NCBI GenBank assembly: GCA_017304135.1
Contig: JAFLBB010000006.1
Span: 1 to 64,000 of the forward strand
DNA from: Acidobacteriota bacterium
Lineage (GTDB): Bacteria > Acidobacteriota > Terriglobia > Bryobacterales > Bryobacteraceae
Reading direction: 5' to 3'
DNA length: 64,000 bases
Made by a program: the position numbers and the translations under genes. The notes beneath the pieces are model-generated. The model was not told the DNA's origin. It searched no databases and saw nothing but the letters and a program-made list of their open reading frames with translations. Shown one piece after another: positions 59,495-62,118 of this stretch (positions are counted from its first letter, which is position 1; each line of letters begins with the position of its first letter).

Positions 59495-59995
59495 TCAGCC
59501 GCGCGGTTCGGCGAGAAGCAGTTCCATGTAGAGGATGCCCGGAATGGGGTCGTTGTAGTAGCGGCCGATTTCGCGGAAACCGAGGGAACGGTAGAGGGCT
59601 ATGGCGGCGTCCATGCGGCCGGGGATGGTGTCCAGCAGAAGGCGCTGGCAGCCAGCGGCGCGCGCGCGTTCGAGCAGGGCGTTCATGAGCAGCCGTCCCA
59701 GGCCGCGGCCATGAAAAGCGGGCAGCACGAACAGCCGCTTCACCTCGCCCGTGTGCGGCTGAAACTCGCGCAAGGCCACCACGCCGGCGATCTCACCGCC
59801 TACCTCAGCCAGCAGGATGCAACCTTCGGGCGGCGCAAAGCGCCCCGGCAGCGCGGCCAGTTCGGCTTCGAAGCTGGGAAAGCATTCCGGAGCGGCAACG
59901 TGGTCGAGATAGACCCGGAACAGCGCCCGCACGGTGTCCATCTCGTCCGGGCGCGCCTGGCGAATTGTTGGGGTTAGTGCTTCAGCCGCGAGCAT
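59495..59995 (-). CDS. GNAT-family N-acetyltransferase
   Basis: 166 residues. GNAT motif A reads [20 protein letters not shown] with the pyrophosphate-binding RGLG. Further marks are [18 protein letters not shown] and [20 protein letters not shown]. It transfers an acetyl group from acetyl-CoA to an amine; the substrate is unknown. The ATG at 59995 overlaps the 3' end of the cysteine peroxiredoxin gene by 22 bp, so the N-terminal few residues may be over-called. Confidence 0.9.
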
Positions 59996-60486
59996 GCCGT
60001 CATCGCGCCGGTGATGTCCACCGCCGACGATCCCTCCTCGATGAACTGGATCTTGCCGTCCTTATCGACGACGAAGGTCGCCCGGTTGGCGACGCCCGAG
60101 GGCATCAGGATGCCGTAGGACTCACTGATCTTCTTCGAGAAATCGCTCAACAGCGCCTGCTCCACCTTGAGCACCTCGGTGGCCCAGTATTTCTGGCTGG
60201 GGATGTTGTCGGTGCTGATGCCGTACACGACGGCGCCGGCGTCGGTGAACTTATGGAGATCCTTGTTAAACGAGGTCATCTCCTTGGTGCAACCGCCGGT
60301 GAAGGCGGCCGGGAAAAAGGCCAGCACAACGGCGTTCTTGCCGCGGAAGGCGGACAGGGTGACCTTCTCGCCTTTGGTCGAGGGAAGCGTGAAATCAGGG
60401 GCGGCGTCGCCGACCTTCAGGTGCGTCTTGGGAGCTTGGGCAAAGAGTGCTCCGCCCAGAAGGAGCATGGCCAGAATTCGCGTCAT
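59974..60486 (-). CDS. Exported peroxiredoxin, cysteine form (AhpC/TSA family)
   Basis: 170 residues. A signal peptide ([17 protein letters not shown]) sends it to the periplasm. The catalytic loop is [10 protein letters not shown] with peroxidatic C66 and the conserved Pro and Thr. The catalytic Arg lies in [10 protein letters not shown] second cysteine near the end (TACSRLKH, C165) may be resolving. It reduces peroxides using a thiol donor. Its neighbour upstream on the same strand is nearly the same length and architecture but has UGA at the cysteine codon. TTG 60495 is a less likely start. Confidence 0.94.
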
Positions 60487-60579
60487 GCGGTCCAATCTAC
60501 CACGCCCAGGGCCGCCAGGGGAGTAAGTAGAGACACTTTTCCTGCATGCCTCGTGAAGGCAGTCACGATCGAGGAGCGA

Positions 60580-61101
60580 CTAGTGTTTCAGCCGGCTACA
60601 AGCGGTTGCCGCGCCGGTGATGTCAATGGCGCCCGAACCCTCCTCGATGTGTTGGATGACGCCGCTGGCGTCGATGACGAATGTGGCCCGGTTGGCGATT
60701 CCGCGGTCAGCCATGAGCACGCCGAAATCGGCGGCGGTCTTCCGCATGAAGTCGCTCAACATGGCGAATTCGATGTTTTCTTCTTTGGCCCAGTGACCCA
60801 GGGTGGGAAGGTTGTCGGTGCTGACCATGAACACTTCAGCTCCGGCATCCTTGAACTTTTGGATACCAGCCTGGTATCCGCGAAGTTCCTTCGTTCAACC
60901 ACCGGTGAAGGCGGCCGGGAAAAACGCCAGCACAACGGTCGACTTGCCCGCGAAATCGGTAAGCGCGACCTGTCCCCCCTTCGTCGAGCCCAGCTCGAAG
61001 GCGGGGGCTTTGTCGCCCACCTTCAGATGAGTCTTCGGCGGCGCGGGGGCCTGTGCCAGCATCGTTCCCGCCGCCAGAGCAAGCAGGAAAGTGCGTCGCA
61101 T
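60580..61101 (-). CDS. Exported peroxiredoxin, predicted selenoprotein (UGA-encoded Sec at residue 69)
   Basis: 173 residues if UGA is read through. The first 68 residues (signal peptide [17 protein letters not shown], then [15 protein letters not shown] and FFPAAFTGG) end at UGA (60897-60895). The frame then runs uninterrupted through [18 protein letters not shown] to SRLKH and a TAG at 60582-60580. The UGA replaces the peroxidatic cysteine of the tandem paralogue (FTGGC versus FTGG-UGA). The catalytic Arg (ANRATFVID) and the C-terminal C168 are kept. A SECIS-type hairpin starts shortly after. A degraded pseudogene is unlikely since there is no other stop or shift. Sec would boost peroxidase reactivity. 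Confidence 0.88.
60853..60897 (-). promoter_or_regulatory. Bacterial SECIS-like hairpin downstream of the UGA codon
   Basis: Reading minus-strand mRNA, UGA is at 60897-60895. A 6-bp lower stem (GAACUU 60888-60883 with AAGUUC 60858-60853) and a CGC/AA internal loop carry a perfect 7-bp upper stem GGAUACC/GGUAUCC. The loop is AGGCU at 60872-60868, beginning 22 bases after the UGA, with G at loop position 2. This fits the known bacterial SECIS layout bound by SelB. The paralogue's matching region lacks such a compact hairpin. Confidence 0.82.
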
Positions 61102-61114
61102 AGGGGACAGCGTA

Positions 61115-61942
61115 TCACGAACGGCGGCGTGCGCAGGCCAGCGCGAGCAGTCCGGCGGCCAGCAGCAGCGAGGTGGCGGGCTCGGGCACGCTGTTGATCA
61201 CCGCCGTGCCGGTGGTTTCGGCAAGCACCGTCGCGCCGTCGCTGATGCGGTAGGTGCCCTGGAAAAGATACTGCAGGCCGTCGTTGTAGTTGGCCATGTC
61301 ATTGAGGGCGATCTGGCGCTCGGCGTTGTTTGTGCACGGGTGGGGGTCGCCCGGACCGCATGGCCAGAGCGCGTTGCCGCTGCCGCGTCCGATGAGGGCG
61401 TCGACCAGTTGCGTGTTCGGCCCGGCAGTGACGAAGACGTCGTCGCTGGTGAACACCTGCAAATCGTCGCCGGCGAGAATGCCCACGTAGTCGGCGCCGT
61501 AGTTATAGCTGCCAGCGGCGAAGGTGAAGCCAAGGGCGTCAAAGGGGTCGGTGCTGAAGGCCGTAAAGCTCAACTGCGAGATGCTGAACTGGGTGCCGTT
61601 GCCGTTGACCACGAGCCCGAACAGGATGCGGTTGCCCAACTCCGAGGCAAAGGCGGGGCCGAATACGCTGCCGGGGTCCACCTGGCCGAGCCAGCTCGGG
61701 AAGCTGGTGACCATGACCTCGTTGCCGAAAAACTGGGTTCGTTGTTCGTAGTAGGCGGGTGTGCCGGGAGTGCCGGCGGTCGTCGTGCCGTTGTACAGCG
61801 CGTTCAGGGCGTTGGTGCGCCAGGAGGCATAGCTGGGACTACCGAAGCCATTCGGAGCCAGCGCCGGGTTTACATCAATCGTGATCGGTCCGGCAAACGC
61901 CACAGTGGACGCCGCCGCCAGGATGAACAGGTGGATTCGCAT
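61115..61942 (-). CDS. PEP-CTERM sorting-domain secreted protein
   Basis: 275 residues. Signal peptide [17 protein letters not shown] and PEP-CTERM tail ([18 protein letters not shown], ending RRRS). The body opens [20 protein letters not shown] and is beta-rich. GAGGAG precedes ATG 61942 by 7 bases. It should be processed by an exosortase at the inner membrane. The gene is 13 bp upstream of the predicted selenoprotein gene, so the two may be co-transcribed. An inverted repeat lies about 180 bp upstream. Confidence 0.9.
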
Positions 61943-62118
61943 GGTGTACTCCTCGTGTTCATCCATCGAGTCTTCGTTTTGTAAGCTTTATCTAAATCAT
62001 TGAAAATACGGTATTTCCTATTTCAGAGACCACTAGCTCTCAGCACCGAGACACAGCCGCAGGCCCATGTGCCCTGCGCCCTCAGTGGCAGACATCGGGT
62101 GATGGCTCTACGGCGTAC

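Follow-up and report, generated by a model that had tools for sequence, protein, structure and literature searches.

On the minus strand of a 64,000-nucleotide stretch of DNA from an acidobacterial genome (the window), a peroxiredoxin gene is interrupted by an in-frame TGA codon at the position of the catalytic cysteine. The initial annotation had proposed that this UGA is recoded as selenocysteine (Sec), and the question is whether the codon is indeed read in this way or whether it represents a true stop, a sequencing error or another kind of decoding. Selenocysteine at codon 69, in the active site, is strongly supported by our data, and the proposal as a whole, an AhpE-like peroxiredoxin with Sec as peroxidatic residue, is very probably correct. 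The gene and its unusual codon are located as follows.

60580 to 61101, minus strand: Sec-peroxiredoxin gene of 173 codons with TGA as Sec and the stop TAG, based on translation, PF00578 and the TGA kept in order and phylum.

60895 to 60897, minus strand: in-frame TGA, residue 69, peroxidatic Sec in PAAFTGGU, based on translation and alignment of homologues.

Translated on the minus strand from 61101 down to 60580, the frame yields 173 residues with a single internal TGA. Its position at 60897-60895 had been given exactly to the base and corresponds to the peroxidatic position in the motif PxxxTxxU, and the 104 open codons claimed between the UGA and the TAG were borne out as well. With the TGA translated as an amino acid, the product matches the AhpC/TSA domain PF00578 with 120 bits, the gathering cut-off being 26. 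The UGA-interrupted frame goes far beyond chance. Gene calling with translation table 11 nevertheless ends the frame at the UGA, and standard gene calling would truncate the members of this clade.

That the gene caller stops at this codon, and that TGA is only one step away from the TGC of the paralogues, would also fit a pseudogene, with the TGA as a genuine stop and decay of everything behind it. In the order, 257 genomes were searched and 192 of them contain a relative at E <= 1e-25; the 95 tblastn matches carry TGA (69) or TGC/TGT (26) at residue 69, and no further stop was found within any of them. A sample of the phylum comprised 396 genomes with a match at E <= 1e-30 in 50, and each match listed has one TGA, except the source genome's own Cys paralogue. 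The 19 loci retrieved from beyond the order all have the TGA at residue 69. Taken over order and phylum, 110 distinct homologues show TGA at codon 69 in 86 cases, TGC/TGT in 24 and other stops in none. Random stops or frame breaks in the orthologues, named in the initial annotation as an argument against recoding, were thus absent, and the alignment revealed an exchange between UGA and Cys codons at residue 69 only. In comparison with a congener, the codons past the UGA show a dN of 0.056 and a dS of 0.48; therefore, these 104 codons are translated and under purifying selection. A nonsense mutation is refuted by this conservation, and with the same TGA located at the active-site position of 86 distinct homologues across the phylum, a decaying gene is hardly credible.

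A sequencing or assembly error, by which a TGC would have been misread as TGA, has in its favor that the source genome is a draft of 353 contigs with a frame break in its selD gene. The same TGA, however, is present in independent genomes, including the congeners G123 and G124, which refutes an error of this kind and leaves it even less credible than a pseudogene.

The Sec peroxiredoxin clade is widespread, and probably ancient, in Acidobacteriota, a soil phylum. Among the named genomes that bear the TGA are Bryobacteraceae, Terriglobia, Pyrinomonadaceae and Chloracidobacterium bins. One of the commonest soil phyla harbors a widespread clade of selenoenzymes. Sec forms are under-sampled in the contig pattern scan, which used Cys at the active site. 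Among looser relatives, a TGA at the aligned site was observed in L204, L231, L236, L237 and L239, which come from bins of Anaeromyxobacter, Planctomycetota, Verrucomicrobia, Deltaproteobacteria and Anaerolineales.

Many bacteria show readthrough of UGA, and the codon could in principle be decoded as another residue such as Trp, either by a variant code or by generic readthrough. The alternative residue at the site is always Cys, however, and TGA terminates other genes here as well as the same peroxiredoxin gene in the congeners L040 and L041. In addition, both the Sec machinery and a SECIS element are present. A variant code is rejected on conservation, and decoding as a residue other than Sec appears extremely improbable.

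The machinery for Sec incorporation, for which the initial annotation had suggested a search, was found completely in the source genome, a 97.5% complete draft of 6.49 Mb in 353 contigs. One tRNA-Sec scores above the Rfam cut-off (69 bits, anticodon UCA, TCA in the DNA), and selA is present in full length (488 bits). Two caveats apply. The selB gene lies in two pieces at contig ends, with the N-terminal part on C78 (287 bits) and the C-terminal part on C138, and the selD copy of this assembly (G000:C236:2132-3044, L150), whose own active site reads AAG-UGA-ASKL, carries a 1-base frame break. The latter is likely an assembly error, because selD is intact with one TGA in two congeners and three other family members. 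A comparison over genomes detected selA in 106 of the 118 that have a Sec form versus 16 of the 26 that have Cys forms only (Fisher p = 0.001); most of the 12 Sec-form genomes without detected selA are fragmented drafts. G046, assembled in four contigs and 98% complete, provides the clearest negative: it has a Cys form and neither selA nor selD, and several of its Sec-form congeners retain selA.

The source genome also contains a second candidate selenoprotein of the AhpC/TSA type (G000:C321:70813-71403, minus strand; loci L013, L018) with the sequence SADW-UGA-PYCKTQ, that is, a UxxC motif. Of 24 matches to this candidate (SADWUPYC) from other genomes of the order, 21 hold one TGA and are otherwise free of stops, the count referring to TGA codons irrespective of alignment position.

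Directly downstream of the UGA, the RNA can form the structure expected for Sec insertion.

60853 to 60888, minus strand: bacterial SECIS hairpin with the core GGAUACC-AGGCU-GGUAUCC at 60879-60861 and the lower stem GAACUU/AAGUUC.

The bSECIS model demands a loop of 3-9 nt with G among the first two loop positions, a spacing of 16-37 nt, a stem of 4-16 bp and an MFE <= -7.5 (PMC13188914). The hairpin alone, with the loop AGGCU at 22 nt from the UGA, 7 bp and -9.8 kcal/mol, conforms to it. Folded within a longer stem it reaches -16.4 kcal/mol and a z-score of -3.6, compared to +1.4 for the TGC paralogue. The five core pairs are formed in 96% of the cells across 67 Sec sequences versus 41% across 24 Cys sequences, this pairing signal vanishes when the partners are slid, and paired changes from C-G to U-A and from A-U to G-C occur in the stem. 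A bSECIS-like hairpin at <= -7.5 kcal/mol was obtained for 35/67 Sec forms and for 1/24 Cys forms. The single exception, L059 (genome G083, 1489-2007), is a Cys homologue with the hairpin still in place; its genome has selA and a selD containing one TGA, and the hairpin is probably a relic of a recent Sec-to-Cys conversion. Shuffling of synonymous codons over the 48 nt after the UGA gave no excess folding in the Sec group (mean z -0.56 versus -0.76 for Cys); this is a weak test, probably because the stem mostly occupies positions that fix the amino acids (YQAGI). Rfam returned no meaningful match near the gene, as expected because the SECIS lies in-frame. The hairpin tracks the UGA in that Sec forms retain it and Cys forms have lost it, and the claim of recoding is supported from four sides: sel genes, UGA/Cys exchange at one site, intact frames and a SECIS-like hairpin. 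With strong support, SelB and the Sec-tRNA (UCA) would read UGA codon 69 as Sec via this adjacent downstream element.

The neighboring gene had been presented as a paralogue with TGC at the same position.

59974 to 60495, minus strand: tandem Cys paralogue, intact and without SECIS hairpin, with TGC at 60291-60289 and 60% identity to the Sec gene.

The TGC at the aligned codon was confirmed, but the Sec gene has nearer relatives than this paralogue, since the tree places the paralogue elsewhere. A recent tandem duplication as origin of the TGC neighbor is not supported; its grouping, though weak, is with other Sec proteins and apart from the window's Sec trio. In congeners, the Sec gene adjoins the AI-2E transporter and no Cys neighbor is present. 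In the window, a gene for a PEP-CTERM protein (61115-61966) is situated between AI-2E transporter and peroxiredoxin, and no match to it was found in the congeners L040 and L041.

In which direction did the exchange proceed? The tree was calculated without the Sec site and the SECIS columns and needs 10 state changes. When rooted on Acidobacteriota from outside the order, it requires 11 steps with Sec-to-Cys changes only and 24 with Cys-to-Sec changes only, and the likelihood of an irreversible Sec-to-Cys model far exceeds that of the opposite one (lnL -39.3 versus -49.1). Ancestral Sec with about 10 replacements by Cys is favored but not proven, because the outgroup was chosen by similarity. 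Table 1 of the 2006 survey PMC1794560 gives five Prx conversions, in one direction only. At residue 62 (codon 60918-60916), the site of the canonical peroxiredoxin Pro, Val is found in 19/19 Sec forms outside the order and in 4 inside, versus Pro in 24/24 Cys forms, phylogeny being a confounder of this contrast. On balance, we lean slightly towards a scenario in which an extracytoplasmic Sec-Cys peroxiredoxin, distinct from the cytoplasmic PrxU, was present in the common ancestor of Acidobacteriota, was kept in soil lineages and underwent repeated replacement of Sec by Cys, with loss of the canonical Pro tolerated by Sec forms alone. A single tree with some 10 Sec/Cys changes, together with the decay of the SECIS after loss, provides a good natural experiment on the retention and loss of Sec.

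The function of the protein was approached through its predicted structure (pLDDT 91). Mycobacterial AhpE is the best fold match (Z 25.7, VIA; rmsd 1.6 over 151 residues), AhpE-like entries fill the top seven structural matches, and AhpE is among the top PDB matches of the sequence profile. The motif PxxxTxxC/U is present as PAAFTGGU along with the conserved Arg, Arg138, which is invariant. Two further features bear on mechanism and localization.

60598 to 60600, minus strand: codon of Cys168, putative resolving Cys, invariant in 110/110 homologues.

61048 to 61101, minus strand: signal-peptide-like N-terminus, residues 1-18, with charged start and hydrophobic core, as judged from sequence.

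Each of the 110 mature proteins contains two chalcogens and no more, U/C69 and C168, a pattern that suggests resolution between Sec and Cys. By inspection of the sequences, 101/110 homologues have a hydrophobic core at the N-terminus and 93/110 have K/R near the start; a lipobox was found in 0/110. The protein is probably exported. Exported bacterial selenoenzymes include FdnG/FdoG of E. coli and periplasmic [NiFeSe] hydrogenases, so that export of a selenoenzyme, called notable in the initial annotation, has precedents; for the present protein it is predicted from the N-terminal sequence only. Following export by a putative N-terminal signal peptide, the enzyme would act in the periplasm or extracellularly. 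There, as fold, PxxxTxxU and Arg138 suggest, the selenol would reduce hydroperoxides. Cys168 may then resolve the selenenic acid to a selenenylsulfide, to be recycled by a putative extracytoplasmic reductant, as the two invariant chalcogens and the lack of any others would imply. Sec outside the cytoplasm would raise the question how the Sec-Cys pair is reduced after export.

Alternatively, Sec is inserted but the main role of the protein is that of a thiol/disulfide oxidoreductase, a redox sensor or a 1-Cys peroxidase and not of a two-centre peroxidase. The closest fold belongs to AhpE, which is described as a 1-Cys peroxiredoxin, and the protein has no CxxC or UxxC motif. Cys168, in contrast, is the sole other Cys and invariant in 110/110 homologues, and the peroxidatic motif and Arg138 are retained. 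Such a role is therefore possible but unlikely, and a two-centre Sec-Cys peroxidase is preferred.

The TxxU type of Sec peroxiredoxin is established as a selenoprotein family (PMC13188914, PMC1794560), and PMC1794560 counts 4 acidobacterial selenoproteins, which fall into 3 families. Text searches combining Acidobacteria and selenoprotein gave no description of the present clade; an earlier listing in the supplements of the surveys is possible. No NCBIfam model passes its cut-off, even on the read-through protein. PrxU of Eubacterium acidaminophilum (listed in PMC13188914) has in common with it the peroxidatic Sec in an AhpC/TSA domain, TxxU and bSECIS-driven insertion, but the protein reaches only 64 bits on the PrxU model NF040737 (cut-off 270), and its clade differs by the signal-peptide-like N-terminus, the invariant C-terminal Cys and the phylum-wide range in Acidobacteriota. 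The selenoproteins among the Prx-like thiol:disulfide oxidoreductases (UxxC) and Prx-SUH (NF045827) likewise contain Sec and belong to the PF00578 superfamily; the former differ by UxxC/CxxU instead of TxxU, and against the latter the protein scores 48 bits at a cut-off of 298. AhpE of Mycobacterium tuberculosis (PDB 1XVW, 4X0X, 5ID2), the best fold match, shares about 33% identity and the motif FFPxAFTG, but has Cys in place of Sec, is described as 1-Cys and lacks this N-terminal extension. The present protein has Sec and, departing from the single peroxidatic Cys of the AhpE subfamily, the second invariant Cys168. The acidobacterial peroxiredoxin thus represents a well-supported new clade of the known family of Sec peroxiredoxins.
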